Made by a program: the position numbers and the translations under genes. A stretch of DNA of 64,000 bases from Thermoplasmata archaeon. Its GTDB lineage: Archaea > Thermoplasmatota > Thermoplasmata > Lutacidiplasmatales > UBA184. The notes under the pieces were generated by a model. It ran no database searches. It was not told the origin of the DNA and worked only from the letters and a program-made list of their open reading frames with translations. The stretch covers positions 1 through 64,000 of the forward strand of contig JAKAVQ010000007.1 in NCBI GenBank assembly GCA_021817245.1, in the 5' to 3' direction. This document shows, piece after piece, positions 30,247-46,311 of this stretch; position 1 is the stretch's first letter, and each line of letters starts with the position of its first letter.

Positions 30247-30987
30247 ATGACCGAGGCCCCCTGGGTCCGCTTCGAGGGCGAGAGGTTCCGCGACGAGCTC
30301 ACGAGGTACAAGATGGAGCACCATCCGTTCAAGACCCACCCGTTCTTCGCGCGGCTCGAGCAGGGGGAGGTCCCGCTCCCGGTCGTGAAGGAGTGGGTCC
30401 GTCAGTTCTACCCCTGGCTCGCGTCCGTTCCGATCGCGATGGCCGAGCGGTTCGCGAACTGCTCGTGGGAGCCGTCGAACGACCGGTACCGGCGGATGAT
30501 CCTCGACCAGCTCGTCGAGGAGGCCGGAGACCCGAAGGGCAAGGAGCCCGGGCACCCGGAGCTCTGGCTGAGGTTCTGCGAGGGACTGGGCCTCTCCCGC
30601 ACCGACGTCCAGTCGGCGCCGCTCCTTCCGAGCACGATGGTGGCGATCGACGACTTCCTCTATACCAACCGCGTGAACTCCTTCTACGTGAGCGCGGCGG
30701 GCTCCTCCGAGCCGCCGAACGTCGAGCTTTGCGCGCGCCTGCTGCCCGCGTTCCGTCGCCACTACCACGTCGACGAGGACCACCTCGCCTACTACAACCT
30801 GCACGTGGTCGCGGACGTCGAGCACAGCGAGTGGATCGGTCAGATCGTCGCCGGCTTCGCGAATTCGCCCGAGGTCCGCAAGCAGATGTGGGACCAGATG
30901 CTCCGCGGCTTCTCGATCCACGCGCTCCTGGTGGACGGGGTCCTCGCCGCCGCCGATCGCGCCGGCGCAAAGACCAAGCATAAATAG
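30247..30987 (+). CDS. Heme-oxygenase-fold protein, PqqC/TenA-like (possible di-iron oxidase)
   Basis: The 246-residue, mostly helical protein resembles the TenA/PqqC/CADD group of the heme-oxygenase fold. It starts with a helix rich in aromatic residues (HHPFKTHPFFARLEQGEV) and has LVEEAGDPKGKEPGHPELW with candidate metal ligands (Glu, then His). It ends with HYHVDEDHLAYYNLHV followed by DVEHSEW, which again offers Asp, Glu and His ligands. This spacing fits the non-heme di-iron oxidases of the fold better than thiaminase TenA, which uses a Cys. The substrate is unknown, and no pqq or thiamine genes are nearby. It is divergent from the CoA transferase. The start codon is fixed by the TATA box 25 nt upstream. 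The stop codon overlaps the TATA box of the downstream aro-trp operon. Confidence 0.65.
   Translation: MTEAPWVRFEGERFRDELTRYKMEHHPFKTHPFFARLEQGEVPLPVVKEWVRQFYPWLASVPIAMAERFANCSWEPSNDRYRRMILDQLVEEAGDPKGKEPGHPELWLRFCEGLGLSRTDVQSAPLLPSTMVAIDDFLYTNRVNSFYVSAAGSSEPPNVELCARLLPAFRRHYHVDEDHLAYYNLHVVADVEHSEWIGQIVAGFANSPEVRKQMWDQMLRGFSIHALLVDGVLAAADRAGAKTKHK
30980..30987 (+). promoter_or_regulatory. Strong TATA box of the aro-trp operon
   Basis: ATAAATAG is close to the archaeal box A consensus and has a purine-rich AAGC just upstream that could be the TFB site. It overlaps the last codons of the preceding gene. Transcription should start near 31008-31012. That places the ADH synthase start (31186) behind a leader of about 175 nt and puts the leader-peptide ATG (31011) at the very 5' end of the mRNA. 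Confidence 0.65.
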
Positions 30988-31010: not shown

Positions 31011-31082
31011 ATGCCGGACCGGTGCGCGCGCCCCTTCGACGTGCGGGCGACGGGCCGGACGGCCGCGACCTGGCTCTGGTGA
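31011..31082 (+). CDS. Candidate Trp-rich leader peptide of the aro-trp operon
   Basis: A 23-codon frame begins with ATG at the predicted transcription start. It reads MPDRCARPFD at its beginning and TAATWLW at its end, so two of its last three sense codons are tryptophan (TGG at 31071-31073 and 31077-31079), followed by TGA. It has no ribosome binding site, but leaderless starts are common in this window. A stable hairpin begins 2 nt after the stop codon and the first biosynthetic gene follows 100 nt later. The layout is that of a transcription-attenuation leader: ribosomes stalling at the Trp codons could change folding of the RNA behind them. This is inferred from position and codons only, and a chance frame cannot be excluded. 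Confidence 0.45.
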   Translation: MPDRCARPFDVRATGRTAATWLW

Positions 31083-31083
31083 A

Positions 31084-31111
31084 CGGGAGGCGCCGGGAGG
31101 GCGCCGTCCCG
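31084..31111 (+). promoter_or_regulatory. Leader hairpin of the aro-trp operon
   Basis: CGGGA (31084-31088) pairs with TCCCG (31107-31111), and GGCGCC (31089-31094) pairs with GGCGCC (31100-31105), with one bulged G (31106) and the loop GGGAG. The stem begins 2 nt after the stop codon of the candidate leader peptide. A competing pairing of CGGACGG (31056-31062) with CCGTCTG (31119-31125) would enclose this hairpin. No T-run follows, so it could act as a pause, a terminator aided by protein factors, or a translation control element. Confidence 0.45.
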
Positions 31112-31185
31112 ACCTGCCCCGTCTGAGCTCGGGCCGTGCTCCCCGGACGCTTCCCTCGATCGCACACGAACGAAGGGGAGAAACG

Positions 31186-31938
31186 ATGTACGGAAAAACG
31201 GTCCGACTGAAGCGCCTGTTTCCCGAACCCGGCCACCGCCTGTTCAGCGTCCCGCTCGACCACCCGGTGTCGATGGGACCGATTGACGGGCTCGAGGAGC
31301 TCCGACCGCTCGCCGAGGAGCTCCAGGACGGCGGCGTCGACCTGTTGATCGTGACAAAGGGGGCGGTCCGCGAGCTCGTCCCGGTGCTCGCGCCGACGAC
31401 CCTGCTCGGCGTGCACGTCTCGGCGTCGACGACCCTCGGCTCCACGTCGAACCGTAAGGTGCTGGTCGGGAGCGCCGAGGAGGCCGTGAGCCTCGGCGCC
31501 GACGTCCTCTCGATCCAGGTCAATTTCGGGATTCCCGAGGAGCCCGACATGCTCCGGGACCTCGGGATCGCGGCCGACCAGTGCCGGGCGCTCGGCCTGC
31601 CGCTCCTCTGCATGGCCTACGTGAAGAAGGCGAACGGCGGCACGCCTGACGAGCTGCGCCACGCGGCCCGCGCGGCCGCCGACACCGGGGCGGATATCGT
31701 CAAGACGAGCTACCCCGGCTCGCGCGAGGAGTTCGCGAAGCTCTGCCGTACCACGCCGGTCCCGGTGCTGATCGGCGGCGGGGTCCGGCTCGAGGACGAG
31801 GCGGAGTTCCTCCGCATCGTCTCCGACAGCGTGGCGGCCGGCGCGGGAGGGATCTGCATCGGGCGGAACCTCTTCCAGCGGCGCCCGGTCGCGCCGCTCG
31901 CCCGGTCGATCGCGAACGTCCTCCACGGGAGCGCGTAG
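31186..31938 (+). CDS. aroA': ADH synthase: 2-amino-3,7-dideoxy-D-threo-hept-6-ulosonate synthase
   Basis: It catalyses the first step of the archaeal shikimate route, a transaldolase-like condensation of aspartate semialdehyde with 6-deoxy-5-ketofructose 1-phosphate to ADH. The 250-residue protein belongs to the class I aldolase (DhnA) family. Catalytic residues are in place: Asp25 in VPLDHPVSMG, Tyr145 in CMAYVKK and the Schiff-base Lys173 in DIVKTSYPG. It has a real ribosome binding site (GGGGAG, 31175-31180, 5 nt before ATG), in contrast to the leaderless first genes elsewhere here; this fits a long mRNA leader. It is the first gene of a 15-gene operon that also encodes the two enzymes that supply its aspartate semialdehyde. 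Confidence 0.92.
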   Translation: MYGKTVRLKRLFPEPGHRLFSVPLDHPVSMGPIDGLEELRPLAEELQDGGVDLLIVTKGAVRELVPVLAPTTLLGVHVSASTTLGSTSNRKVLVGSAEEAVSLGADVLSIQVNFGIPEEPDMLRDLGIAADQCRALGLPLLCMAYVKKANGGTPDELRHAARAAADTGADIVKTSYPGSREEFAKLCRTTPVPVLIGGGVRLEDEAEFLRIVSDSVAAGAGGICIGRNLFQRRPVAPLARSIANVLHGSA

Positions 31939-31951
31939 GGGGACCCGGGCG

Positions 31952-32983
31952 ATGACGCGGGAGCGCGCGGTCGTGAATCCCGTCGCCGACGACGCCACGA
32001 CGTTCGGCGCGATCGTCGAGCGCGCGCGCCGGCGGGGGTTCCGCCAGTTCGTCGTCGACGCCCGGATGCAGTACGCCTTCCGCCCCGACGAAGAGGTGCT
32101 CCGCCGTGACGGGAACCGGCTCGTCGGCCCCGAGGGCGGCCCGCCGCCGATCCCGATCGTCACCGTCGCCGACGAGGCATCGCTCTCCCGGGCGGTCGGC
32201 GCCGTCGCCGACGGAGCGACGCTCGCGATCGAGTGGACCGCGGACCGAGTGATCCCGCTCGAGAACGCGATTGCTGCGCGGGGCCGACGGTTCCGGCTCT
32301 GGACGTACGCGCGGACCCCCGCCGAAGTCCCCGCGGCGCTCGGGGCGCTCGAGCACGGGGCCGACCGGGTCCTGGTCTCCGTCCGCACGCCCGAGGAGGT
32401 CGACGCGCTCGAGGCGGTCGTCGAGGGCCCGCTCGCCTCCGACCTCGCCTGGGACGTCGTGCCGATCACCGCGGTGCGGCCGGTTGGCCTCGGCGACCGG
32501 GTGATCGTCGACACCACGTCGATCCTCCGGCCCTCCGAGGGTCTGCTCGTGGGGAGCCAGGCGGCCTTCCTGTTCCACGTGGCGAGCGAGGCCGAGGGCT
32601 CCGCGTTCAGCCGTCCCCGACCGTTCCGGGTCAACGCCGGCTCGGCCCACTCCTATGTCCTGATGGCTGATGGCTCGACGCGCTACCTCGCGGAGCTCTC
32701 CGCCGGCGATGCGGTCCTCGTCACCGAGCCGCGGGGCACGGTCCGCGCCGTACGGGTCGGACGGATCAAAGTCGAGCGCCGGCCGCTCCTGGTCCTCGTC
32801 GCCGATCCGGGCGACGCGCACCGGACGCTCTTCCTGCAGGAGGCGGAGAGCGTCCGGGTCAGTGCCGAGTCGGGCCGCATCCCGACGACCACCGTCGACG
32901 TGGGGGCGCGGCTCTGGGGAGTCCGACTGCCGCCGGCCCGCCATCTCGGGAAGGCGATCGAGGAGACGATCGAAGAGCGATGA
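31952..32983 (+). CDS. aroB': 3-dehydroquinate synthase II
   Basis: It performs the NAD-dependent oxidative deamination and cyclisation of ADH to 3-dehydroquinate, replacing bacterial AroB in archaea. The 343-residue protein has the family layout. A first half with RRGFRQFVVDARM and alternating strands is followed by VIVDTTSILRPSEGLLVGSQAAFLFHVASE, FRVNAGSAHSYVLMADG, and a conserved TRYLAELSAGDAVLV segment. The length matches archaeal homologues. The gene lies 13 nt after ADH synthase and overlaps the next gene by 4 nt. Confidence 0.92.
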   Translation: MTRERAVVNPVADDATTFGAIVERARRRGFRQFVVDARMQYAFRPDEEVLRRDGNRLVGPEGGPPPIPIVTVADEASLSRAVGAVADGATLAIEWTADRVIPLENAIAARGRRFRLWTYARTPAEVPAALGALEHGADRVLVSVRTPEEVDALEAVVEGPLASDLAWDVVPITAVRPVGLGDRVIVDTTSILRPSEGLLVGSQAAFLFHVASEAEGSAFSRPRPFRVNAGSAHSYVLMADGSTRYLAELSAGDAVLVTEPRGTVRAVRVGRIKVERRPLLVLVADPGDAHRTLFLQEAESVRVSAESGRIPTTTVDVGARLWGVRLPPARHLGKAIEETIEER

Positions 32984-34482
32984 CCGCCGCGAGGCCTCGG
33001 ATCATCGTCTCTCTGCCGGCCCGCCACCTCTCCGAGGTGCGTTCAGAGCTCGAGCGCGCCGCGGCGGGAGGCGCCGACGTGGCGGAGCTGAGAATCGACC
33101 GACTGGCGCCCGGAGAACGGTCACGCACCTCCGAGCTCTTCCCTACGCCCGTTCCCCTGCTCGCGACGCTGCGCTCGCGGGCGGAGGGCGGAGAGGGACC
33201 GGACGACCCGGCCGAACGGGCACCGCTCCTGGGGCGCCTTGCCCGGGAGGGGTTCCGCTGGATCGACCTCGAGGTCGGCCGGGACCTTCCCGAGCCCGCC
33301 GGCATCCCGCCGGCCCCGCAGGTCGGCCGCATCCTCTCGGTCCACCGGCTTCGTCCGATCTCGGACGAGGAGTGGCCCCGCCTTGTCGGACGGACCGTGC
33401 CCGAGGGCGCGTACCTCAAGATCGTCGCTCCCGCCGGGGTACTCGAGACCCTGACCCTTTGGCTGCCGACCCTCTCCGCCGCGCATCCGCCTTCCGTCGT
33501 CGCGATGACCACCGGTCCCTCCGGACCGCTCCTGCGCGCGCTCGCCGGCCGGCTCGGCGCCCCGATAGTCTTCGCCGCGCTCCCCGAGGCGGGATCTCGC
33601 TCGCCGTCGCCGGTGGAGCCGGGTCAGCTACCGGTCGACCGCCTCCGACCTTTCCTCGACTCCCCCGGCGGCCCGATCTTCGCGGTCGTCGGCCACCCGG
33701 TGGCCCACTCGCGGAGCCCGGCGCTCCATCACCGCTGGATGCGATCGCACGGGCACGCCGGTCTCTACGTCGCCCTCGACATCCCCACCGGGGCGGAGCT
33801 CGTCGCCGCCTTGAGGCCCCTGGCGGCCTGGGGAGTCCGCGGGGTCAACGTGACCCATCCGCTCAAGTCGGCGGCGTTCGGGGCGGCGACGGAGCTCTCG
33901 GAGGGGGCGCGGGCCTCCGGCGTCGCGAACTGCCTCACCCTATCGGGGGACCGGATCGTGGCGGAGAACACCGACCTCGGTGCGGTGCGCCGCCGCCTTA
34001 CCGAACTGCGCGCCGAGGGCCGATGGGACGGCGCGCGTCTCGCGGTCGTCGGGACCGGCGGGGCGGCCCGGGCCACGCTGGCTGCGGCACGCTCCTTGGG
34101 CGCGATCGCCTCGGTCTACGGTCGCCACCCCGGCCGCACCCGAGCGCTCGCGGAGGAGTTCGACGCCCGGTCCGGCCGGCCGGACGGGGCCCTCGCCGAG
34201 CAGCTCGTCGTCCACGCCACCTCCGTGGGTCGCACCGATACCGGCTCCCTCGAGTTACCCCTCGAAGGACTGCTCCGGGCCGGATCCCACGTACTCGACT
34301 GGGTCTACGACCCGGTCCAATCCGAGGTCCGCGAACGTGCACGGCGGGCCGGGGCGACCTACGAGGACGGACGTCGCCTCCTCGTGTACCAGGCCGCGGC
34401 GAGCTACGAGGTATGGTGGGGGGAGTCCCCCGACGCGACGGAGATCGCCCGGACGCTCGAGGAGGAAGGATGCACGGCGTAG
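32980..34482 (+). CDS. aroDE: Fused 3-dehydroquinate dehydratase (type I) and shikimate dehydrogenase
   Basis: The first 225 or so residues form a type I dehydroquinate dehydratase, and the rest a shikimate dehydrogenase, so one 500-residue chain carries 3-dehydroquinate through 3-dehydroshikimate to shikimate. In the dehydratase part the catalytic His is in ILSVHRLRP and the Schiff-base Lys in AYLKIVAP. In the dehydrogenase part the substrate site is VVGHPVAHSRSPALHHRW, the catalytic Lys is in NVTHPLKSAAFG, the ENTD motif is present, and the NADP loop is VVGTGGAARATL. Such fusions are known in plants and some bacteria and archaea. The frame is intact. It overlaps aroB' by 4 nt and the shikimate kinase gene by 13 nt. 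Confidence 0.93.
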   Translation: MTAARPRIIVSLPARHLSEVRSELERAAAGGADVAELRIDRLAPGERSRTSELFPTPVPLLATLRSRAEGGEGPDDPAERAPLLGRLAREGFRWIDLEVGRDLPEPAGIPPAPQVGRILSVHRLRPISDEEWPRLVGRTVPEGAYLKIVAPAGVLETLTLWLPTLSAAHPPSVVAMTTGPSGPLLRALAGRLGAPIVFAALPEAGSRSPSPVEPGQLPVDRLRPFLDSPGGPIFAVVGHPVAHSRSPALHHRWMRSHGHAGLYVALDIPTGAELVAALRPLAAWGVRGVNVTHPLKSAAFGAATELSEGARASGVANCLTLSGDRIVAENTDLGAVRRRLTELRAEGRWDGARLAVVGTGGAARATLAAARSLGAIASVYGRHPGRTRALAEEFDARSGRPDGALAEQLVVHATSVGRTDTGSLELPLEGLLRAGSHVLDWVYDPVQSEVRERARRAGATYEDGRRLLVYQAAASYEVWWGESPDATEIARTLEEEGCTA

Positions 34483-35348
34483 GGAGCGCGTCGGCCGCGA
34501 TGACCGTCGTGAACGCGCTCCCGACCGGCATCGGCGCGGCGCTCGGGATCGACCTCTGGACCTCCGTCGAGCTCTCGGTCGTTCCAGCGGCAGACCCCGC
34601 CCGCTCCTACTTCCGCCTCGACGAGCCGGCGCGGACGCCGCTCTTCGAGATGTCCCTCGGCCGGGCGCTCGAGCGCTACCTTCCGGGGCGGCGGTACGAC
34701 GTCGAGGCCCACGTTCGCTCCGAGATCCCGGTCGGGCGGGGTTTGAAGAGTTCGAGCGCGGTGGCGAGCGCGGCCGTCCTTGCGATCGCGGCCGCGGCCG
34801 GATCCCGGCCGACCCCGCTCGAGGTCGCCCGCCTCTCCGCGGAGCTCGGACGTGCGGCCGGCGTCAGCGCGACCGGTGCGTTCGACGACGCGCTCGCCGG
34901 GCTGGTCCCCGGCGTCGTGGTCACGGACAACCGGTCCGACACCGTGCTCCGCTCGGACCCCATCGGGGAGGAGCTCGAGGCGGCGATCCTCCTGCCGCCG
35001 TCGGTCCATCCGCCGGCACCCGAGCTCCGGGAGCGGTTCCGGGCCGCGTCCGAAGAGGGACTTCGCGCCGCCACTGCGGCTCGCGAGGGGGCGCACTGGG
35101 CGGCGATCGCGCTCAATTCCGATCTCGTGGAACGGGTGATGGGCTACTCCTACGCGGCCCTGCGCCGCGACCTCGAAGGCGCCGGGGCCGTCGCCGCGGG
35201 GGTCAGCGGCCTCGGGCCGGCCCTGGTGGCGCTTGCGCCGTCGGGGCGCATCCCCCGCCTTCTCGACGCGATGTCCGGCTTCGAGGGCGACCGCCTCCGT
35301 ACCCGCTTGAGATTGGCGCCCGCGGTCGGCGGCGGAGGGGGGCGGTGA
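34470..35348 (+). CDS. aroK: Archaeal shikimate kinase (GHMP type)
   Basis: It phosphorylates shikimate to shikimate 3-phosphate with ATP. It belongs to the GHMP kinase superfamily used by archaea instead of bacterial AroK. The 292-residue protein has the GHMP phosphate-binding loop in EIPVGRGLKSSSAVASAAV and the archaeal N-terminal pattern TVVNALPTGIGAALGIDL. The C-terminal motif GAVAAGVSGLGPALVAL also matches. The ATG at 34470 lies inside the end of aroDE. A later ATG at 34500 is possible, but the family usually has about ten residues before the TVVNA stretch. Confidence 0.9.
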   Translation: MHGVGSASAAMTVVNALPTGIGAALGIDLWTSVELSVVPAADPARSYFRLDEPARTPLFEMSLGRALERYLPGRRYDVEAHVRSEIPVGRGLKSSSAVASAAVLAIAAAAGSRPTPLEVARLSAELGRAAGVSATGAFDDALAGLVPGVVVTDNRSDTVLRSDPIGEELEAAILLPPSVHPPAPELRERFRAASEEGLRAATAAREGAHWAAIALNSDLVERVMGYSYAALRRDLEGAGAVAAGVSGLGPALVALAPSGRIPRLLDAMSGFEGDRLRTRLRLAPAVGGGGGR

Positions 35349-36631
35349 GGCGCCTACTCCTCACCCCGGGGACCGTCCGGGGTCGGTTGCGCGCGCCGCC
35401 ATCGAAGAGCTACACGCACCGGGCGTTGGCCGTGGGCCACCTCGCGGGCCACCGGTACCGCATCGAGCGCCCGTTAGACTCGGACGACACGCGGGCCACC
35501 GCGCGGGCGATCACCGCGCTCGGGACCCGGGTGGTCCGGGACCCCCGCGGCTGGACGGTCGGGCCTGGGAGAGGCCCAGGGCGCGGGAGCCCGGTACGGA
35601 TCGACTGCGGGGAGTCCGGCACCACGCTGCGGTTCGCGGCCGCGCTCGCCGTCCGCGCGGCCCGGCCGTCGATACTGCTCGGAGCGGGCCGACTGCCGAT
35701 CCGGCCGATGGATCCGCTTCTAAGGGCGCTAACAGCGCTCGGCGCGCGGGTCGCGCGCCCCCGGGAGGGCGGCGGGCTGCCGCTCCGGTTGGAAGGACCG
35801 CTCCACGGCGGCGCGGTCTCGCTCGACGCCTCGGGGAGCTCCCAGTTCGCCTCGGCGCTCCTCCTGGTCCTGCCGACGCTCGACGAGGACTCGACCGTGC
35901 GTCTCACGGGCCGCGTCGTCTCGCGCCCGTACCTTGACGCCACCCTGCGGATGCTCGCCGCCCATCACGTCCACGTCGACGCGGACGCGTCGGGGCGTCG
36001 GTACCGCGTCGCGGGAGGACAGGCCTACCGAGGCTCCCGCTTCCGGGTGCCGGGAGACGCCTCCTCGGCGGCGTACTTTTGGGTCGCGGCCGCTCTGACC
36101 GGCGGCTCCGCCCGCGTGGACGGGGTCCCGGCCGCCTGGCCGCAGGCCGACCTCGCGGTCCTGGAGCTGCTCCGACAGGCGGGCGCCCGGGTGCGCACCC
36201 ACCGGGACGGCGCGACCGTCACCGCCGGGACCTTGCGGGCGTTCTCGGTCGACCTCACCCACGCTCCGGACCTCTTCCCGCTCGCGGGCACACTGGCCGC
36301 GGGGATCGAAGGCCGCAGCACGCTCGCCGGCGCCGGACGGCTCGTCGCGAAGGAGTCGGATCGCCGCGCCGGGACCGAGCGACTGCTGCGCGCACTCGGA
36401 GCGCGGGTGGAGCGACGCCGGGACCGGCTCGTGGTCGAGGGGCGGCCACCGTTCCGCCCGTTCGCGCTCCTCGGGGCGGGGGATCATCGAATGGTGATGA
36501 CCGCCGCGGTGGCCGCCCGGGCGGCCGCCCGGGGACCCTGCACCGTGGAGGACGCCGGTGCGGTCGCGAAATCCTACCCCGGGTTCTGGCAGGACCTCGA
36601 ACGGATGACCGAAGGAGCTCTGGAACGATGA
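35345..36631 (+). CDS. aroA: EPSP synthase (3-phosphoshikimate 1-carboxyvinyltransferase)
   Basis: It adds the enolpyruvyl group of phosphoenolpyruvate to shikimate 3-phosphate. The 428-residue protein shows the two-domain EPSP synthase pattern. PPSKSYTHRALAVGHLA (active-site Lys and Arg) is followed by CGESGTTLRFAAALA, GAGRLPIRPMDPLL, ASGSSQFASALLL, FRVPGDASSAAYFWVAAAL, LKESDR-like VAKESDRRAGT, and DHRMVMTAAVAA. Note that DASGSSQF lacks the extra residues of bacterial class I enzymes. The GTG start overlaps the shikimate kinase stop (GTGA) and the end overlaps the chorismate synthase ATG. Confidence 0.93.
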   Translation: MRRLLLTPGTVRGRLRAPPSKSYTHRALAVGHLAGHRYRIERPLDSDDTRATARAITALGTRVVRDPRGWTVGPGRGPGRGSPVRIDCGESGTTLRFAAALAVRAARPSILLGAGRLPIRPMDPLLRALTALGARVARPREGGGLPLRLEGPLHGGAVSLDASGSSQFASALLLVLPTLDEDSTVRLTGRVVSRPYLDATLRMLAAHHVHVDADASGRRYRVAGGQAYRGSRFRVPGDASSAAYFWVAAALTGGSARVDGVPAAWPQADLAVLELLRQAGARVRTHRDGATVTAGTLRAFSVDLTHAPDLFPLAGTLAAGIEGRSTLAGAGRLVAKESDRRAGTERLLRALGARVERRRDRLVVEGRPPFRPFALLGAGDHRMVMTAAVAARAAARGPCTVEDAGAVAKSYPGFWQDLERMTEGALER

Positions 36632-37713
36632 TGCGAATCGGAGAACGCTACCGCGTGACGCTGTTCGGGACGAGCCATGGACCCGAGGTCGGCGCCGTGA
36701 TCGAGGGGGTCCCCGCCGGCACCCCGATCGACGCCGGTCGCATCCAGTCGGACCTTGACCGACGCCGGCCGGTCGGTCGGCGGCTGGCCACCAAACGCCA
36801 GGAGGAGGACCGCCTCGTATTGGACGACGGCGTCGTCGACGGACGCGCGACCGGGGGGGCGCTGCGGGCGCACGTGGCGAACGAGGACGTCCGTCGCGGA
36901 CCGTACGACTCGCTGCGCAACACGCCGCGGCCCGGCCACGCCGATTACCCGGCCCGCGTCCGCTACGGGCCCGAGGCCGACCTCTCCGGAGGGGGGATCT
37001 TCTCCGGGCGGATGACCGTCGGGCTGGTGATCGCGGGCGCGATCGCGGATTCCCTCCTGCGCCCGCTCGGGGTCCGAGTGGTGGCGTTCACCCGCTCGAT
37101 CGGAGCGGTCGACGCGGCCGTCCCCGACTCGCTCGAGCCAGGGGAGATCGCCCGCCGCGCCGCGGAGAACGAGGTAGGAACGCCGGACGCGCGGGCCGCC
37201 CCCGCGATGGAGGCGGCGATCGCCGACGCCCGCCGCGACGGAGACTCGGTGGGGGGGACTATCGAGGTTCGTGCGGTCGGCATCCCGGTCGGGCTCGGCG
37301 AACCGTTCTTCGACTCGATCGAGGGCACGATCGCCCATGCGGTCTTCTCGGTGCCCGCGGTAAAGGGGATCGAGTTCGGGGCCGGTTTTTCCTCCGCACG
37401 GATGCGCGGGAGCGAGCACAACGACGCGTTCGTCCTCGAAGAGGGCCACGTGCGGACCTCTACGAACCATGCCGGGGGGATCCTCGGCGGCCTCGCGACC
37501 GGGATGCCGATCGTGTTCCGCGCCGCGGTCAAGCCGACCAGTTCGATCGCCCGCCCGCAGCGAACCGTCGACCTCGAGCGGGGCGCGGAGACCACGTTGG
37601 TCGTCACGGGCCGCCACGACCCCTGCATCGTCCCCCGCGCGGTCGTGGTGCTCGAGTCGGTCACCCGGATCGTCCTTGCGGACCTCGCGCTCCGGGGAGG
37701 GTTCGTCGCATGA
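36628..37713 (+). CDS. aroC: Chorismate synthase
   Basis: It makes chorismate from EPSP using reduced FMN. The 361-residue protein has the conserved YRVTLFGTSHGPEVGAVIEG start, the RRPVGRR(L/M)ATKRQEED FMN-site segment, GGGIFSGRMTVG, and the TNHAGGILGGLATGMPIVFR motif. The length is normal. The usual ISNGEP sequence appears as LATGMP. The start (ATGATG at 36628) overlaps the aroA stop. The gene completes the route to chorismate, and the operon then continues with genes for aspartate semialdehyde and tryptophan. Confidence 0.94.
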   Translation: MMRIGERYRVTLFGTSHGPEVGAVIEGVPAGTPIDAGRIQSDLDRRRPVGRRLATKRQEEDRLVLDDGVVDGRATGGALRAHVANEDVRRGPYDSLRNTPRPGHADYPARVRYGPEADLSGGGIFSGRMTVGLVIAGAIADSLLRPLGVRVVAFTRSIGAVDAAVPDSLEPGEIARRAAENEVGTPDARAAPAMEAAIADARRDGDSVGGTIEVRAVGIPVGLGEPFFDSIEGTIAHAVFSVPAVKGIEFGAGFSSARMRGSEHNDAFVLEEGHVRTSTNHAGGILGGLATGMPIVFRAAVKPTSSIARPQRTVDLERGAETTLVVTGRHDPCIVPRAVVVLESVTRIVLADLALRGGFVA

Positions 37714-38801
37714 GCGGCGCAGAGCGGATCCCGGTCGCGATCCTCGGCGCCGGCGGCTACATCGGCCAACACTTCGCGCGGCTCCTCGCCGACCACCCCT
37801 ACTTCGCTCCCGAGGTCCTCGCCGCCGGCGAGCGCTCCGAGGGCCGTCGCCTCGCGGACCTCTGGCAGCTCGCCGACGCGCCGCCCGCGGAGCTCGCCGA
37901 CCGCGTCCTCCGTGCGCTCGGCCCCGGAGAGCTCGCCCGGGCCGGCGTGGCGCTCGCCTTCTCCGCGCTTCCTTCGGGGACGGCCGGCCCGGTCGAGACC
38001 GAGCTCGTGCGTCGGGGCGTCTCGGTCTTCTCGAACGCCGCCGATCACCGGCTCGACGCCCGGGTCCCGCTTCTGGTCCCCGAGGTGAACGGCGACCATC
38101 TCGGCCTCCTCGCGCGGCCCCGGGGCGGTCGCGGGCTTCTCGTCACGAACGCGAACTGCTCGACCACGGGACTGGTCCTTGCGCTCGCGCCGGTGGCGGA
38201 GCTCCTGCGACCGAAGGTCGTCCACGTCGCGACCTACCAGGCGCTGAGCGGCGCGGGGTACCCGGGCGTCCCGTCGCTCGCGATCACCGACAACGTCGTC
38301 CCGTTCATCCGCGAGGAGGAGGAGAAGCTCGCCCGCGAGACCGCGCGGATCCTCGGGACCCGGCGCGGCCCGCGCGTGGTGCCGCTCTCCACACCGGTCC
38401 TGTCGCACTGCGCGCGGGTCGCGACCCGCGAGGGCCACCTCGAGGCGGTCACGATCGAGGCGCTCCACCGGCCCCGCCGAAGCGAGCTCGAGGCGGCCTG
38501 GCGCGCCTTCGACCCGCTCGGCGGCCTCGACCTTCCGACCGCGCCCCGGCCGCCGGTCGAGCTGCGCCGCGAGCCCGACCGTCCTCAGCCGCTGCGGGAT
38601 CGCTGGGCCGGGACGCCGGCGCGGGCCCGCGGGATGGCGGTGGTGGTGGGCCGAATCCGCTGGGAGCCTCCCTACCTGCGCTTCTTCACCCTCTCGCACA
38701 ACGCGGTCCGGGGCGGCGCGGGGGGCTCCGTGCTGAACGCCGAGCTCGCGCTCGCGCGGGGGTACCTGGACCGGCACGGGAGGCCCGGGCATGCCGAGTA
38801 G
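37710..38801 (+). CDS. asd: Aspartate-semialdehyde dehydrogenase
   Basis: It reduces aspartyl phosphate to aspartate semialdehyde. The 363-residue protein has the NADP loop AILGAGGYIGQHFARLL, the catalytic Cys in VTNANCSTTGLVLAL, a QALSGAGYPG segment, and the substrate-side His in LSTPVLSHCARVATREGHLEAV. It belongs to the archaeal/fungal-type subfamily. In archaea with the ADH pathway, aspartate semialdehyde is a substrate of ADH synthase, which explains its place between the aro and trp genes. It overlaps aroC by 4 nt and lysC by 11 nt. Confidence 0.92.
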   Translation: MSGAERIPVAILGAGGYIGQHFARLLADHPYFAPEVLAAGERSEGRRLADLWQLADAPPAELADRVLRALGPGELARAGVALAFSALPSGTAGPVETELVRRGVSVFSNAADHRLDARVPLLVPEVNGDHLGLLARPRGGRGLLVTNANCSTTGLVLALAPVAELLRPKVVHVATYQALSGAGYPGVPSLAITDNVVPFIREEEEKLARETARILGTRRGPRVVPLSTPVLSHCARVATREGHLEAVTIEALHRPRRSELEAAWRAFDPLGGLDLPTAPRPPVELRREPDRPQPLRDRWAGTPARARGMAVVVGRIRWEPPYLRFFTLSHNAVRGGAGGSVLNAELALARGYLDRHGRPGHAE

Positions 38802-40110
38802 TCGACGCCCCATCGTCCTCAAGTTCGGGGGTGCGTCGCTCGAGGACCCCGATCGGCTCGCCCGAGAGGTCCGGGACGCGCGAACGGAAGGCGCGCCCGT
38901 GGTCGTGGTCGCCTCCGCCCGCGAGGGGGTTACCGATCTCCTCTCGGAGTCGCTCGCGCATCCCCGCTCCCAGGCCGTGCACCGACGCACCCTCGAGGAA
39001 CTGCGGCGTCGCCACCCGGGCCTCCCCCCCGCGGGCCGTCGGCAGCTCGCGCGCACGCGTCGTCTCTTGGAGCTGGTCGAGCGGGGCGGTGGCCACGACG
39101 CGCCGCTCGCCGACCGTCTCCTGAGCCAAGGGGAGCGGCTCGCGGTGCACTGGCTCTCCGCCCAGCTGCGCCTCCACGGCCTGCCGGCGGTACCGGTGGA
39201 GGCGGACCACCTCGGGCTCATCACGGACAACACCTACGGCGCCTCCCTGATCCTGTTCGACCGGTCGAGGGGCCCGGTCCGCCGGGGCGTCGGCCGCCGG
39301 CTCGCGCGCGGGGAGCTCCCGGTCGTCACCGGCTACTTCGGCCGGAGCCTGGAGGGCCGGGTCGCGACGCTCGGGCGGGGGGGGTCGGACTACGCCGCGG
39401 CCGCGCTCGGCGCGCTGCTCGGCGCGCGCCGGGTGGAGCTCGTGAAGCGGCACGTCGCGGTCCTCTCCGCCGACCCGAAGGAGGTCGCCGCGGCACGTGC
39501 GCTGCCCGAGCTCTCCTACGAGGAGGCCGAGGAGCTCGCGCAGTTCGGGGCCAAGGTGTTGCATCCGCTCACGATCGAGCCCGCCCGCGCCCAGAGCATC
39601 GAGCTCCGGGTCCGCTCGCTCGAGGACCCCCGGGTCGTCACGACGATCGCCCCAGAACGGCCGGGCCGCCGGAACCGCGCGCTCACCGTGTTGCGACCGC
39701 TTCGCCTCTTGCGGTTGCGGGTTCCCGGCGGCCGTCAGCGGCCCGGGATCGTTGCCGAGGTCTCGCAGCGGCTCGCGAGCGCCGGGGTCAACCTGGTACA
39801 GCTCTACACCTCCTCCGCGCTCCTCTGCCTCGTTCTCGAGCCTCCCCAGGTCCTCGCCGCGATCCGCGCTCTTGCTCCCGTGACCCGGGAGGCCGCGGCC
39901 ATGGTGGAGGGACCGTACCCGGTCGCCCTCGTCATCGCGATCGGCGACCACATCCTCGACGACCTCGGCCGGTTGCCGGCGGGGGCCGTCGCGGGCGCCG
40001 AAGGGTTCAGCGCGACGCCGCGCGCGCTGTCGCTGGCGGTGCCCGAGGCGAGGGCGCGCGACGTCCTTCGGGCGCTCCACCGGGCGCTCGTCGAGGAACG
40101 GGGGCCGTGA
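38791..40110 (+). CDS. lysC: Aspartate kinase
   Basis: It phosphorylates aspartate. The 439-residue protein begins with the ATP-site motif VLKFGGASLEDPDRLA and has the TLGRGGSDYAAAALGALL motif that binds aspartate and nucleotide. The segment YEEAEELAQFGAKVLHP is highly typical of the family. The C-terminal third carries ACT-type regulatory folds (RQRPGIVAEVSQRLASAGVNLVQL), so allosteric inhibition by an amino acid is likely. Which one cannot be told. In this operon the product feeds asd and then ADH synthase, so the kinase may serve aromatic synthesis rather than lysine or threonine. Confidence 0.92.
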   Translation: MPSSRRPIVLKFGGASLEDPDRLAREVRDARTEGAPVVVVASAREGVTDLLSESLAHPRSQAVHRRTLEELRRRHPGLPPAGRRQLARTRRLLELVERGGGHDAPLADRLLSQGERLAVHWLSAQLRLHGLPAVPVEADHLGLITDNTYGASLILFDRSRGPVRRGVGRRLARGELPVVTGYFGRSLEGRVATLGRGGSDYAAAALGALLGARRVELVKRHVAVLSADPKEVAAARALPELSYEEAEELAQFGAKVLHPLTIEPARAQSIELRVRSLEDPRVVTTIAPERPGRRNRALTVLRPLRLLRLRVPGGRQRPGIVAEVSQRLASAGVNLVQLYTSSALLCLVLEPPQVLAAIRALAPVTREAAAMVEGPYPVALVIAIGDHILDDLGRLPAGAVAGAEGFSATPRALSLAVPEARARDVLRALHRALVEERGP

Positions 40111-41312
40111 CCGACCCGTGGGAAGCCTTCGTCGCGCGCAGCGACGGCGCCGAGATCGCCGGATACTTCGAGCGGCGGCCGGACCGACGCGAGGGTCCGG
40201 GAGCGGCGGTCGCGTTCGTCGGCGCCGACTTTGTCGAGACCCTGACGCCGCGGACCGATCTCGAGGAGCTCACGCGCGCGACGGGCCGGTTCCTCCGGTC
40301 CGGCCGACGCGGTCGTGCGGTTCTCGGCTACGCAGGGTTCGACGCGGTCGGACTCTTCGAGCCGGCGCTCCGGGACTTCCCGGAGGGATCGCCGTTCCCC
40401 CTCGGAGAGTTCGCGTTCGTCGAGCGCGCCGAGGCGCGGGCGCTCCCCCCCCGGCGACGCTCGCCCGGCAGGGCGACCGCGCCCCCGGCGACCGCGCTCC
40501 GTCCCGCGGCGGACTCGCTGCCCCGCGCGCGGTTCGTGGAGAGCGTCCGGCGCCTGCGCCGCGACATTCGGGACGGCGAGGCCTACCAGATCGTACTCGC
40601 CCATCGGCGGCGCTGGAGCCGGCCCGACGACCTCCTCGGGCGGGCGGGACGGCTCCGTGCCTCCGAGCGGTACGCGTACTTCTACTACCTGCGCTTTCGC
40701 GATCGGGAGATCGTCGGGGCGAGCCCGGAGTCGGTCGTCGAGGTGCACGGGACCCGCGCGCTCGTCAACCCGATCGCGGGCACGATCTGGCGTGGACCGG
40801 GATCGCCCCACCGGCTGCCGCTCGAGGTCGACCCGAAGGAGCTCGCGGAGCACCGGATGCTCGTCGATCTCGCCCGCAACGATCTCGGCGCGATCGCCCG
40901 TCCCGGGACCGTGCACCTTCCGTGGACGGAGCGGAGGGTCCGCTACGCGCGGGTCGATCACCTCGTGAGCCGGGTCGCGGCAACCCTGCGAGCGGGGGTC
41001 GGACCGTGGCAGGCGCTCGGCGCGACGTTCCCCGCCGGAACCGTGAGCGGGGCGCCGAAGATCCGCGCGACGGAGCTCCTCCGGCGCGAGGAGCGGACCT
41101 GGCGCGGCCCGTACGCGGGCGCGGTCGGTCTCCTGCTGCCCGGAGGTCGTGCCGACTTCGCCCTCGCGATCCGCACCGCCTTCGCCGAAGGGCGGCACCT
41201 GTACACCGCGGCCGGTGGCGGGGTCGTCTACCGTTCCCGGCCGGCGCAGGAGTTCCGCGAGACCCTCGCGAAACTGGCCCAGGTCGAGGCGACGTTGGTG
41301 GAGGACCGATGA
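40107..41312 (+). CDS. trpE: Anthranilate synthase component I
   Basis: It converts chorismate and ammonia to anthranilate with the TrpG subunit. The 401-residue protein has the chorismate-binding core: IRDGEAYQIVLAHR, FIGASPE-like IVGASPESVVEV, NPIAGTIWRG, ELAEHRMLVDLARNDLG, FPAGTVSGAPKIRA, and YTAAGGGVVY near the end. It is shorter than the usual 450-520 residues, mainly in the N-terminal domain. The LLES motif that binds the feedback inhibitor tryptophan in well-studied TrpE proteins is not visible. A GTG start overlaps the lysC stop. The next gene encodes its partner TrpG. Confidence 0.9.
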   Translation: MTDPWEAFVARSDGAEIAGYFERRPDRREGPGAAVAFVGADFVETLTPRTDLEELTRATGRFLRSGRRGRAVLGYAGFDAVGLFEPALRDFPEGSPFPLGEFAFVERAEARALPPRRRSPGRATAPPATALRPAADSLPRARFVESVRRLRRDIRDGEAYQIVLAHRRRWSRPDDLLGRAGRLRASERYAYFYYLRFRDREIVGASPESVVEVHGTRALVNPIAGTIWRGPGSPHRLPLEVDPKELAEHRMLVDLARNDLGAIARPGTVHLPWTERRVRYARVDHLVSRVAATLRAGVGPWQALGATFPAGTVSGAPKIRATELLRREERTWRGPYAGAVGLLLPGGRADFALAIRTAFAEGRHLYTAAGGGVVYRSRPAQEFRETLAKLAQVEATLVEDR

Positions 41313-41890
41313 AGCTCCTCCTGGTCGACCACGAGGATTCGTTCGTCCACAACATCGAGCAGGCGCTCGCCGCCCGGGGCGCGTCGGTCGTCTGCCTCCG
41401 GGCGACCGCTCCCTTGCGGGCCGCGCTCGCGGCCGACCCCGACGCGGTCGTGCTGTCGCCCGGACCCGGCCACCCGCGCGACCGCCGCGTCACCGGCCTC
41501 GGCCGTGCGCTGCTCGGGCGGTGGGACCGGGAACGGCCGTTCCTCGGGGTCTGTCTCGGCCACCAGCTCGTCGCCGAGCATTACGGAGGTCGCGTGGTCC
41601 ACGCCCCGGCGCCCGTCCACGGCGAGCTCTCGGAGGTGCGGCATGACGGGAAGGGGATCTTCCGCGGGATCCCCTCGCCGTTCTCCGCGGCCCGGTACCA
41701 CTCGCTGGCGGTCTCGGAACGCTCGGTCCCTCCCGCGCTCGAGATCTCGGCCCGGGGCGCCGAGGGGATCGTCATGGGCCTGCGGCACCGTCGCCGGCCG
41801 GTCGAGTCCGTCCAGTTCCACCCGGAGTCGTACCTGACGCGCGAGGGGCCGAAGCTCCTCGAGAACTTTCTTCGCGAGGTGCGACGGTGA
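41309..41890 (+). CDS. trpG: Anthranilate synthase component II (glutamine amidotransferase)
   Basis: It releases ammonia from glutamine for TrpE. The 193-residue class I amidotransferase has the oxyanion-site segment VVLSPGPGHPRD, the nucleophile Cys in FLGVCLGHQLVAEHYGG, a YHSLAV motif, and the His-Glu pair in VQFHPES. The start overlaps the trpE stop by the ATGA arrangement, so the two subunits are made in equal amounts. The sequence before the catalytic Cys (PGPGHPRD) is the TrpG/PabA type. Confidence 0.93.
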   Translation: MKLLLVDHEDSFVHNIEQALAARGASVVCLRATAPLRAALAADPDAVVLSPGPGHPRDRRVTGLGRALLGRWDRERPFLGVCLGHQLVAEHYGGRVVHAPAPVHGELSEVRHDGKGIFRGIPSPFSAARYHSLAVSERSVPPALEISARGAEGIVMGLRHRRRPVESVQFHPESYLTREGPKLLENFLREVRR

Positions 41891-42924
41891 CGCTCTCCCG
41901 CACGCTCTCCCGCCTCCTCGATCCGGCGACGCTTTCGCCCGGGGCCGCCCGCGCCACGCTCGCCGAGCTGCTCGGAGCCTCTACGAGCGACCTCGAACGG
42001 GCCTCCGTCCTCGTCGCGCTCGCGGCCCGGGATCTCGCCGCGTCCGAGCTCGCCGCTTTCGCTCTCGAGATGCGCAAACGGGCCCGGCCGTTCTCGGTGC
42101 CGGCCGCCGACCGTCCGGTCGACCTCTGCGGGTCGGGGGGGGCCCCCCGGGCGTCGTTCAACGTCTCGACGGTCAGTGCGTTCGTCGTGGCGGCGGCCGG
42201 GACGCCGGTCGTGAAGCACGGCAACCGCAGCGCACGGGGGCGGTGCGGCTCGAGCGACCTGCTCGAGGCGCTCGGGCTCCCCGTCACGACCAGCGTGCCG
42301 TTCGCGCGGTCGTCGTACCGCCGCTTCCGCCTGGCCTTCCTGCACGCTCCGCTCTACCATCCCGCGACCCGCTCCGTGGCGGAGGCCCGTCGGCGGCTCG
42401 GGATCCCGACGCTGTTCAACCGCCTCGGTCCGCTGTCGAACCCGGCGCGCGTCCCGTACCAGGTCGTGGGCGTGCCGGACCTCGCGACGGCCCGGCAGGT
42501 CGTGAGCGCCTTTCCCGCACTGGGCGTGCGCCGCGGCGTCGCGATGACGTCGGACGAAGGGTGCGACGAGTTCTCCCCCCGCTCCGAGACCACCGCCGTC
42601 GTCTGGGACGGGAGCGCGCGTCGCACGATGCGGGTCCGGCCGTCCCGGTACCTCCTCCCCGAGGACCGGCGGGGCGACTGGGGAGCGCTGCCTCCGCCCG
42701 CTGCGGCCGCCGAGGCGGAGCGCATCCTCGCCGGGGGCGGTGGCGCCCGACGGGGCTCCGTCCTGCTCACGAGCGGGACGGCGATCTGGGTCGCCGGGCG
42801 CGCGTCGACGCTCGCCCGCGGGGTCGCGCTCGCCCGAGAGGCGCTCGACGACGGTCGGGCGGAGCGGCTGCTCGAGGGATTGCGCGGGCTCGCCGCCGGC
42901 TACCGGGAGGCGGCCTCGGCATGA
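41887..42924 (+). CDS. trpD: Anthranilate phosphoribosyltransferase
   Basis: It joins anthranilate to the ribose of PRPP. The 345-residue protein has the conserved PRPP loop DLCGSGGAPRASFNVSTVSA and the KHGNRSARGRCGSSDLLEALG anthranilate/PRPP motif. The LFNRLGPLSNPA segment with the second anthranilate site and a DEGCDEFSP Mg-site motif are also present. The length is normal. A GTG start overlaps the trpG stop, and the end overlaps trpC by 4 nt. Confidence 0.93.
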   Translation: MTLSRTLSRLLDPATLSPGAARATLAELLGASTSDLERASVLVALAARDLAASELAAFALEMRKRARPFSVPAADRPVDLCGSGGAPRASFNVSTVSAFVVAAAGTPVVKHGNRSARGRCGSSDLLEALGLPVTTSVPFARSSYRRFRLAFLHAPLYHPATRSVAEARRRLGIPTLFNRLGPLSNPARVPYQVVGVPDLATARQVVSAFPALGVRRGVAMTSDEGCDEFSPRSETTAVVWDGSARRTMRVRPSRYLLPEDRRGDWGALPPPAAAAEAERILAGGGGARRGSVLLTSGTAIWVAGRASTLARGVALAREALDDGRAERLLEGLRGLAAGYREAASA

Positions 42925-43736
42925 CCCCCGGCGGATTCCTCGCGGAGATCGTGCGCGCGGCGCGCCGCGAGGTGGGCGCTCCCGGGTACCTGGACTCCGT
43001 CGGTCCCCCCGCGGGCCGCTCCCGCGTCAGCCTCCGGGCGGCGGTGGAGCGCGACCGGGCGCGCGGCGCCCTGGTCGTGGAGTTCAAGCGGCTGTCGCCG
43101 GGGCGTCCCGACCCGCGGCTGCCGGAGCGCCCGATTCCGGAGTTCGTCGGGGCGACGGAGGCCGCCGGCGTGAGCGGCTACTCGTGCCTCGCAACGCGCG
43201 CCCGCTTCGAAGGATCCCCGTCCGATGTCCGGCAGCTCGCGATGGCGACGGCGCGACCCGTCCTGTTCAAGGACTTCGTCGTGGAGCCGGTCCAGATCGA
43301 CGCAGCCGAGCGCGCCGGGGCGAGCGCGGTCCTCCTCATCGCTCGTCTCGCGACCGAAGCGCACCTGGAGCATCCGCTCCCCGAGCTCGCGGCCTATGCC
43401 CACGACCGCGGGCTCGAGGTCCTGCTCGAGTTCCACCGTAGCACAGAATTAAGTGCGGCAAGCGAGGTGGCGGCCGACATGTATGGCGTGAACGTCCGCG
43501 ATCTCGACACCCTCGCGATCGAGCGGGCGACGGCGTTCGAGACGTTGCGGACGGCGCGCGAGCGGGGTCTCGCGCCGCTGCTCGGGCTGAGCGGGGTCGA
43601 GGGCCCGGTGGAGGCGCGCGCGTTCTGGCGGGCCGGCGTCGACGGGATCCTCGTGGGCAGCGCGGTCGCGCGCTCGAAGACGCCGGACCGGTTCCTAAAG
43701 TCCATCTTCCGTCCCGAGGCGGGAGGTCGCGCATGA
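42921..43736 (+). CDS. trpC: Indole-3-glycerol-phosphate synthase
   Basis: It closes the pyrrole ring to give indole glycerol phosphate. The 271-residue TIM barrel has most known active-site residues: Glu and Lys in VVEFKRLSPG, Lys in PVLFKDFVV, Glu in EVLLEFH, and Asn in YGVNVRDLDT. At the position where the family usually has E-S-G-(I/V) the protein reads L-S-G-V (LLGLSGVEGP), so one conserved Glu is replaced by Leu. The GILVGSAV phosphate-binding strand is present. Start and stop overlap trpD and trpF by 4 nt each. Confidence 0.9.
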   Translation: MTPGGFLAEIVRAARREVGAPGYLDSVGPPAGRSRVSLRAAVERDRARGALVVEFKRLSPGRPDPRLPERPIPEFVGATEAAGVSGYSCLATRARFEGSPSDVRQLAMATARPVLFKDFVVEPVQIDAAERAGASAVLLIARLATEAHLEHPLPELAAYAHDRGLEVLLEFHRSTELSAASEVAADMYGVNVRDLDTLAIERATAFETLRTARERGLAPLLGLSGVEGPVEARAFWRAGVDGILVGSAVARSKTPDRFLKSIFRPEAGGRA

Positions 43737-44380
43737 CGACGTTCGTGAAGTTCTGCGGGCTCTCCGACCCGCTCCACGTCGCGCTGGTCCCGGCGGGCGG
43801 CGCCGCGGGGTTCGTGATCGACGTGCCCGCGTCCCCGCGGAACCTGTCGCTCGCCCAGGCGACCGACCTCATCGCGCACGTGCCGTCGGAGGCGGAGGCG
43901 TGGGCGGTCGTGGTCCGGCCGACGGCGGAGCTCGTCCACCGGCTGTTCGACGAGGTCGGGGTCGATCGCGTCCAGGTCTACGGCGAGATCCCTGCTGGGC
44001 TCGAGTTCCTCGAGGTGCACCACCTCGTCCCGTCGATGGCGATCCCGCCGACCGGGGCGACCGGCGACGTACCGCCCGTCCCCGCGGCCGAGGATTACCC
44101 CCGGGTCCACCTCGACGCGGCCGGGCAGCCGCTTCCGGGAGGCAGCGGCACGCGACCGAACTGGGAGCTCTGCGCGAAGATCGTCGACGCTCACCCCGGC
44201 CGCAAGTTCGTGCTCGCCGGCGGGCTCGCTCCCGACAACGTGGGTGACGCGCTCGCGACCGTCCGGCCCTGGGGGGTCGACGTCTCTTCGGGGATCGAGA
44301 GCGCTCCCGGCGTGAAGGACCCGGAGAAGATGCGGGCGTTTTTGCGGGCGGTCGAGGAGTTCGAGCATGGGCACGGCTAG
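43733..44380 (+). CDS. trpF: Phosphoribosylanthranilate isomerase
   Basis: It catalyses the Amadori rearrangement of phosphoribosylanthranilate. The 215-residue TIM-barrel protein starts with VKFCGLSDP, which carries the catalytic Cys. The GVDRVQVYG strand (usually V-Q-L-H-G) and RVHLDAAG with the catalytic Asp follow, then [12 protein letters not shown] and [20 protein letters not shown] at the phosphate site. It overlaps trpC by 4 nt and trpB by 14 nt. Confidence 0.9.
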
Positions 44381-45527
44381 GCGCTACGGTCCGTACGGGG
44401 GGTCGTTCGTTCCCGAGACCCTCGTGCCGGCCCTCGACGAGCTCGACCGGGTCTGGCGCACGGCGCGTGGGGACCCCGCCTTCCGTCGCGAGCTCGCCCG
44501 CCTCTCGAGGAGCTTTGGGGGGCGACCCACGCCGCTCTACTTCGCCCGGAACCTCACGCGCCGGGGTCGCGGGGCGGAGATCTGGCTGAAGCGCGAGGAC
44601 CTCGTCCACGGAGGCGCGCACAAGTTCAACAACGCGCTCGGACAGGGACTGCTCACCGTTCGGATGGGCAAGCCCCGGCTGATCGCCGAGACCGGGGCCG
44701 GCCAGCACGGGGTCGCGACCGCGATGGTCGGGGCCGCGCTCGGCCTCGAGACCGAGGTCTTCATGGGCGAGGTCGACATGGACCGCCAGAAGCCGAACGT
44801 CGACCGGATGCACCTGCTCGGCGCCAAGGTCATCCCCGTGACGACCGGCCGCCGGACGCTGAAGGACGCGATCAACGCCGCGTTGCGCGACTGGATCGCG
44901 AACGTGCGCACGACCCACTACCTCATCGGCTCGGCGGTCGGGCCGTATCCGTTCCCCGCGATCGTCGCCGACTTCCAGAGCGTCATCGGCCGGGAGATCC
45001 GGCGCCAGTCGCTCGCCGAGTTCGGCCGTCTCCCCGACCTCGCGATCGCCTGCGTGGGCGGCGGGTCGAACGCCATCGGCACCTTCCACCCCCTCCTCCG
45101 CACGCGCGTGGAGCTCCTCGGCGTCGAGGCGGGCGGGCCCCGGGGCTCGCGGGGGGCCGCCTCCCTTACCTACGGTCGCCCGGGGGTCCTCCACGGGAGC
45201 TTCTCCTACCTCCTGCAGAACGACGACGGTCAGGTCTCGGACACCGAGAGCGTCTCGGCCGGGCTCGACTACGCGGGCGTCGGACCCGAGCACTCCTGGC
45301 TCAAGGAGACGGGTCGCGCCCGGTACATCGCCGTGCACGACGAGGACGCGCTCCGCGCCTTCCACTGGCTCGCGGAGGACGAAGGGATCCTCCCGGCGCT
45401 CGAGCCGTCGCATGCCCTCTTCGCGGCGGTCCGGGAGGCCCGCCGACGCCCGAACCAGCGGATCGTGGTGACCCTCTCGGGCCGGGGTGACAAGGACCTC
45501 GGGGTGGTGCTCGACGCCGCTCGCTGA
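44367..45527 (+). CDS. trpB: Tryptophan synthase beta subunit
   Basis: It joins indole and serine to tryptophan with pyridoxal phosphate. The 386-residue protein is of the main TrpB1 type, which pairs with Trp[20 protein letters not shown] is followed by the [19 protein letters not shown] motif with the PLP Lys, [13 protein letters not shown] with the catalytic Glu, VGGGSNAIG for the phosphate, and a [13 protein letters not shown] segment. It overlaps trpF by 14 nt and trpA by 41 nt, an unusually long overlap that should couple synthesis of the two subunits. Confidence 0.94.
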
Positions 45528-46311
45528 CGCCCTCGCCGACGCCCGGCGCTCCGGCCGGACGATCGTCGTACCGTACCTCCTCGTCGATCGCCGCCGACGC
45601 GCCCGGCTCGCGCTCACCGTGCGCGCTCTGCGCGACGCCGGGGCGACCGCCCTCGAGCTCGGCTATCCGTTCTCGGACCCGATCGCCGACGGTCCGGTGC
45701 TCGCGGCGGCCGCCGACCGGGCGCTCGGCGACGGCACGGACTGGTCCGATCTCGTCCGATCGGTGCGCACCGCGAGCCCGGTGCTGCCGACCGCTGTCAT
45801 GACCTACGCGAACCCGGTGGTCCGACACGGGCTCGTGCGGGCGCTCGCGGAACTCGCGAGCGCCGGCGCCTCCGGCCTTATCGTCCCCGACCTCTCGCTC
45901 GAGGAGTCCCTGCCCTGGCAGCGCGCGAGCCAACGGGTGGGCCTTTCGCTCGTACTGATGGCCGCGCCCGGCGCCTCTGCGGACCGAGCCGCACGGATCG
46001 CGCGCGCCTCCCGCGGCTTCCTGTATCTGGTCGCCTACTACGGAACGACCGGACGCGCGTCGGAGGGGCCGGCCGCCGACCTCGGTCCGATCGTCACGGC
46101 GGTGCGACGGGCGGCGCCCGACCGGCCCATCCTGCTCGGCTTCGGGGTCCGGGACCGACGCTCCGCCGAGCGAGCCCTCGCGCTGGGGGTCGACGGGGTC
46201 GTCGTCGGGACGGCGCTCGAAGAGGCGATCGCGCGCGACCCGAGCCCCCGGGCGCTTGGGGACTGGCTCCGCGAGATCGCTGCGGCCCGTAGAGCTCCGG
46301 CCGTGGGGTAG
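45487..46311 (+). CDS. trpA: Tryptophan synthase alpha subunit
   Basis: It splits indole glycerol phosphate and passes indole to TrpB. The 274-residue TIM barrel has both catalytic residues: Glu in [11 protein letters not shown] and Asp in [10 protein letters not shown]. The conserved [21 protein letters not shown], and phosphate loop [11 protein letters not shown] segments are also present. The loop usually written SxxGVTG reads YYGTTGR. The only in-frame start that keeps the first helix is the GTG at 45487, inside trpB; it adds about eight residues compared with the family norm. It is the last gene of the aro-trp operon. Confidence 0.92.

Follow-up and report, generated by a model that had tools for sequence, protein, structure and literature searches.

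Leader-peptide attenuation is a textbook bacterial mechanism. In the trp attenuator of Escherichia coli, the leader has its own ribosome-binding site and the output is an intrinsic terminator, while bacterial translational attenuators of the erm type respond to antibiotics. A ribosome-mediated trp attenuator has also been described for trpLE(G) of Sinorhizobium meliloti, in which the mRNA begins at the leader ATG (PMC7298713). The regulators described for archaeal trp or aromatic operons, TrpY in Methanothermobacter and Tar (TK0271) in Thermococcus, are DNA-binding proteins found at the promoter (PMC6737238).

The locus reported here lies in a 64,000-nt stretch of a Thermoplasmata archaeon contig (hereafter the window, meaning the whole stretch of DNA that was analysed) and precedes an aro-trp operon. 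It resembles S. meliloti trpL in having a short putative leader peptide with Trp codons, competing RNA structures and trp genes as the putative target, and in that the peptide is unconserved apart from Trp (PMC7298713). It differs from it in that the Trp codons abut the stop codon instead of lying inside the peptide, in that no U-tract is found where trpL uses a transcription terminator, and in its archaeal promoter and host, the likely output here being access to a Shine-Dalgarno sequence. Leaderless S. meliloti trpL is the closest known system, although the terminator that characterises its class is lacking at this locus. As in the E. coli trp leader, two nearby Trp codons occur in a short frame next to mutually exclusive hairpins, but the terminator is absent. 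With the erm type the locus would share the principle that the position of the ribosome on the leader decides whether a downstream Shine-Dalgarno is accessible, the proposed signal being charged tRNA-Trp rather than an antibiotic. Finally, TrpY and Tar also place an archaeal trp or aromatic operon under the control of tryptophan or aromatic amino acids, yet without any leader peptide or RNA switch (PMC6737238). Comparison of the locus with its relatives indicates that it is quite probably a ribosome-operated tryptophan attenuator ahead of an archaeal aro-trp operon, with Shine-Dalgarno access as its output. Its features are as follows.

30980..30987, + strand: TATA box ATAAATAG, read from the sequence, with a conserved TAAATA from 30981
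31011..31082, + strand: leader reading frame of 23 codons, MPDRCARPFDVRATGRTAATWLW, plus TGA, from the sequence and its relatives
31071..31079, + strand: putative sensing codons TGG-CTC-TGG (Trp21, Leu22, Trp23), immediately 5' of the TGA, from relatives
31083..31098, + strand: segment 2, the switching strand right 3' of the leader stop, which pairs with segment 3 or segment 4
31100..31111, + strand: segment 3, 3' arm of a local hairpin with 31084-31094, from the own-versus-swapped test
31126..31155, + strand: segment 4 region, 3' side of a long antisequestor hairpin with 31085-31115, from covariation
31150..31180, + strand: proposed sequestor hairpin, 31150-31162 with 31167-31180, hiding the Shine-Dalgarno in the fold predicted with a ribosome at the stop codon
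31173-31180, + strand: Shine-Dalgarno AAGGGGAG of the first gene, whose ATG is at 31186
31186..31938, + strand: first gene, 2-amino-3,7-dideoxy-D-threo-hept-6-ulosonate (ADTH) synthase
31952..40110, + strand: DHQ synthase II, aroDE, GHMP shikimate kinase, EPSP synthase, aroC, aspartate-semialdehyde dehydrogenase (asd) and aspartate kinase
40107..46311, + strand: trpE, trpG, trpD, trpC, trpF, trpB and trpA

The near-consensus TATA box reported in an earlier note on this DNA is present and overlaps the stop codon (30985-30987) of an upstream tenA-like gene; in the window its TAAATA stands 30 nt from the leader ATG (31011-31013). Judging from this spacing the 5' end would be near that ATG, as in leaderless mRNAs, and translation of the leader probably takes place on an mRNA that is leaderless or nearly so. 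Also found as described in the earlier note were the 23-codon frame running from this ATG to Trp-Leu-Trp and a TGA at 31080-31082, the GC-rich hairpin after the stop, the alternative pairing of 31085-31115 with 31126-31155 that encloses it, and the Shine-Dalgarno before the first gene. The 15 downstream genes that it had counted could all be identified and make up the archaeal shikimate route from aspartate semialdehyde followed by trpEGDCFBA. In other TrpE proteins the N-terminal domain carries the feedback site; here TrpE matches Chorismate_bind (PF00425) and leaves the N-terminal Anth_synt_I_N domain unmatched, which fits the lack of a feedback site that had been suspected.

Taken alone, the sequence of the window could owe these features to chance, since the single-sequence fold of the region is no stabler than shuffles (z -0.38) and other frames are often open in GC-rich DNA. 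Openness of the frame was itself rejected as evidence, another frame of the same stretch being open in 49 of 51 relatives. The evidence for the leader is comparative, and relates to homologues of the first gene taken from 80 records, nearly all labelled as Thermoplasmata MAGs and including one of Candidatus Lutacidiplasma silvani (L118). On the strength of that record the group, a family of uncultured archaea from soil, is taken to be Lutacidiplasmatales-like. The leader was found in 51 loci, window included, of these Thermoplasmata MAGs, each with a TATA box, an ATG, a frame of 22-24 codons typically ending in Trp-(Leu/Ser/Pro)-Trp-TGA, and an adjoining hairpin. The distance from ATG to TGA is 69, 72 or 75 nt, a multiple of three in all 51, while the stop-to-gene spacer (91-115 nt) covers all residues modulo 3 (21, 19 and 11 loci); independent indels in the frame are few, perhaps six by eye, since lengths mostly coincide and some of the loci are closely related. 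The earlier note had expected relatives to keep the ATG at the start defined by the TATA box and the Trp codons beside the stop while the rest of the peptide drifts, and this is what is seen: the TATA-to-ATG distance is 28-31 nt in 50 of 51 loci, the last codon is Trp in 51/51 and the third-last in 49/51, and the body has no conserved sequence. The ending is thereby rich in codons for the operon's own product, Trp being confined to the last codons with a single Trp among 916 body residues.

Conservation in this part of the leader exceeds the coding need at the nucleotide level, the core formed by CTGGYYCTGGTGA and the hairpin being nearly invariant. In 50 of 51 leaders a C immediately precedes the first Trp codon, against 42% C at third positions of the body. 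The codon separating the two Trp codons was likewise observed to be YYC (CTC, TCC or CCC) in 50/51 leaders (31068-31082 in the window). Together, the YYC codon and the preceding C suggest a constraint on the RNA, which might stem from CUCU/GGAG pairing with segment 2. At one locus (L101, 2816-3011, in genome G022), GGG replaces the first Trp codon so that the leader ends in GSW; trpE is present in that genome. Apparent second copies of the leader in genomes G016 and G011 were discarded as contig-end duplicates of the same locus.

When 400 genomes of the class were searched with a covariance model built on the 67-nt core, strong matches were confined to the window's own family. Those matches outside family f1 and weak own-genome matches that were inspected lay in sequence without a leader and were not retained. 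Other genera of the family have leaders with a different ending, namely WAW (L187-L189), WSWW (L137), WW (L134) or SWWW (L190, L191), which always abuts the TGA and is accompanied by a TATA-like box and a downstream ADTH-synthase gene. The Trp codons are the part kept by selection, their number and spacing being variable (2-3 terminal Trp). A scan for Trp-rich small frames found no matching leader in seven genomes of other Thermoplasmata families having ADTH-synthase or trp genes, some of the stretches scanned ending short of the full region upstream of trpE.

In all 46 genomes with a completeness of at least 80%, the leader and operon-borne trp genes are either both present or both absent, a tally in which two genomes were labelled by hand (G135, whose leader was seen in L188, and G016, whose leader is on another contig, L049). 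Four leader-less relatives whose regions were read share the content and order of the aro genes and keep trpF while missing trpEGDC, trpB and trpA, and neither trpE nor trpB was found elsewhere in their genomes. In another genome (G279), an ADTH synthase 85% identical to that of the window occurs without leader and without trp genes. On the ADTH-synthase tree the leader and the operon trp genes each change 7 times, and all four strongly supported independent pairs are concordant, which are too few to reach significance on their own (sign test, p 0.125). The Fisher and Wilcoxon p values take no account of relatedness, and the sign test, which corrects for the tree, comprises these 4 pairs only. 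In genus g24, the trp cluster is on a separate contig, and in one genome (G079) a leader, MAAGPCHVSYDARPAMSSCAWGW, ending in AWGW and provided with a TATA box, occurs before trpE, none being found before the ADTH synthase; in three other genomes of this genus, which make three of the four with separate trp clusters, the leader was found in neither place. Since the leader occurs with trp genes and is absent where only aro genes remain, the element follows the tryptophan and not the shikimate genes. The comparison thus supports the attenuator reading, with the absence of the leader from ADTH-synthase operons devoid of trp genes as a further test that had not been foreseen. In the lineages of loci L202, L203, L204 and L205, trpF stays in the aro operon after the loss of trpEGDC, trpB and trpA, which suggests either another job for the isomerase or a recent loss.

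Helices were sought by an unguided scan of 1934 pairs of 13-nt windows, in which the pairing energy of a species' own segments was set against the energy obtained after exchanging segments among species (background SD of z, 1.28). The top signal was a 5'-end helix joining the start-codon region to the stretch upstream of the first Trp codon (z -8.3), and the second was the pairing of segments 2 and 4 (2:4), i.e. of the strand after the stop with a strand ca. 45 nt before the gene (z -6.2). When each of ten clades was represented by a single leader, the own-versus-swapped comparison gave z -4.2 for the 5'-end helix, -3.6 for 2:4 and -2.8 (p 0.004) for the pairing of segments 2 and 3 (2:3), so that the covariation proposed earlier as a check on the hairpins is borne out for 2:3 and 2:4 over ten clades; inside the main clade alone, 2:4 covariation was not significant. 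A compensatory GGCACC/GGTGCC change in 2:3 is found in L193 and L194. Because 2:3 and 2:4 share segment 2, they are mutually exclusive helices beside the putative sensing codons. In the window, 31085-31155 are engaged by 2:4 and 31150-31180 by the sequestor, and the two are also mutually exclusive, 31150-31155 being common to both. Pairing of segment 4 with the Shine-Dalgarno is possible in each of the clades (-10 to -21 kcal/mol); own and swapped segments were no different for this helix (4:5, the output step) over 10 clades (p 0.23), and the output step is therefore argued from pairing potential and not from covariation. Rfam (4227 families) gave no match to the leader and, in the window, only a tRNA-Glu gene.

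The start and second codons (31011-31017) pair with about 31059-31063, with the strongest covariation in the leader (relatives L065-L143), and RNAalifold on 50 aligned leaders detected changes on both sides of this start-codon helix (column pair 19-70, 25 sequences). The window itself keeps the 5'-end helix only partly. This helix may gate translation of the leader.

Ribosome positions were simulated on 48 leaders with the ribosome footprint held unpaired and nearest-neighbour energies at 37 C. On average, the unpaired fraction of the Shine-Dalgarno was 0.45 when the first Trp codon occupied the A site, 0.24 when the second did and 0.23 when the stop codon did. The difference between the first Trp codon and the stop (p 3.5e-9 over 48 leaders, a value unsafe at face value as the species are related and the energies modelled) kept its sign at three footprint sizes; among ten distant leaders it was as predicted in five and opposite in none. 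Without a ribosome the Shine-Dalgarno was 0.40 open, about as with a stalled ribosome, and an untranslated leader would thus not be off.

In the mechanism proposed, transcription would start at the leader ATG or a few bases upstream of it, and the ribosome would initiate there. When charged tRNA-Trp is scarce, the ribosome would pause with the first Trp codon in its A site and segment 2 free; segment 2 would then pair with segment 4, so that the Shine-Dalgarno stays accessible and the operon is on. With ample tryptophan, the ribosome would reach the TGA and cover segment 2, and segment 4 would pair with the Shine-Dalgarno. Such masking would lower translation of the first gene, and the downstream genes would follow via translational coupling or polarity. 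No U-tract of an intrinsic terminator was found in the 51 leaders, in which the longest T-run of the spacer is 1-4 nt and usually 2, and translation attenuation is therefore the most likely output. Sequence comparison shows that the frame with its Trp codons is conserved, that helices 2:3 and 2:4, which compete, are conserved too, and that the element is tied to trp genes; we infer that the leader is translated, that the ribosome pauses on it, that the switch works in the on/off direction given above and that its output is translational.

Archaeal factor-dependent termination responds to absent translation, and a ribosome-sensing Trp attenuator could also end transcription before the first gene, the untranslated or structured leader giving way to a factor such as FttA or to a hairpin. 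The leader evidence fits such an output too, and bacterial trp attenuators do end transcription (PMC7298713). Termination is nonetheless rather unlikely here, given that no T-run in the spacer exceeds 4 nt, which leaves no intrinsic terminator of the archaeal U-tract type, and that a conserved downstream strand is able to pair with the Shine-Dalgarno in every clade examined.

Other readings dispense with tryptophan sensing by the ribosome. The reading frame might be incidental to a structured RNA or a protein-binding element, such as a Trp aptamer or an RNA or DNA operator, and this would suit the almost invariant core of CTGGYYCTGGTGA and hairpin, the C that precedes the first Trp codon in 50/51 leaders and the strong covariation of the 5'-end helix. 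We regard it as quite improbable, because indels in the frame come only in threes, because Trp number and spacing vary between genera while Trp-rich ends and the TGA stay, because helix partners change together, unlike in a DNA operator, and because Rfam has no match. That the leader encodes a small protein acting in trans, or merely aids translation by re-initiation, is hardly credible: the peptide body is not conserved, competing hairpins occupy the 91-115 nt from stop to gene, and the leader is gone along with the trp genes even where aro genes persist. The points in its favour are that bacterial peTrpL acts in trans (PMC7298713) and that the leader is close to the first gene. The ribosome-operated attenuator acting on Shine-Dalgarno access is thus retained as the preferred reading.

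No archaeal leader-peptide attenuator was found in the literature, as judged by titles and abstracts with subscription papers largely outside the coverage, and the main text of the paper describing Lutacidiplasmatales does not mention tryptophan, leader or attenuation. As far as could be found, a ribosome-operated tryptophan sensor has apparently not yet been described in archaea, which does not amount to proof of priority. The locus probably represents an archaea-native attenuator, in which a leaderless frame with Trp codons abutting the stop and an antisequestor/sequestor switch preside over a 15-gene aro-trp operon. Within a single archaeal family it would have been passed on, respelled and lost in company with the trp genes. 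If so, archaea too would sense metabolism through the position of the ribosome, leaderless translation being the entry point. Searching for the signature (TATA, about 29 nt, ATG, Trp-rich end, TGA, hairpin) is simple, and the case opens the control of archaeal metabolism at the level of translation to direct tests.

Neither HisG nor prephenate dehydratase was found in the host genome (G000), these absences being provisional as it is 93% complete. The host may lack the ability to synthesise histidine and phenylalanine, and tryptophan may be the chief aromatic amino acid that it produces; this would account for a whole shikimate operon standing under a tryptophan leader. Genes for asd and aspartate kinase (37710-40110) are built into the aro-trp operon, so that precursor supply would fall under the same leader.
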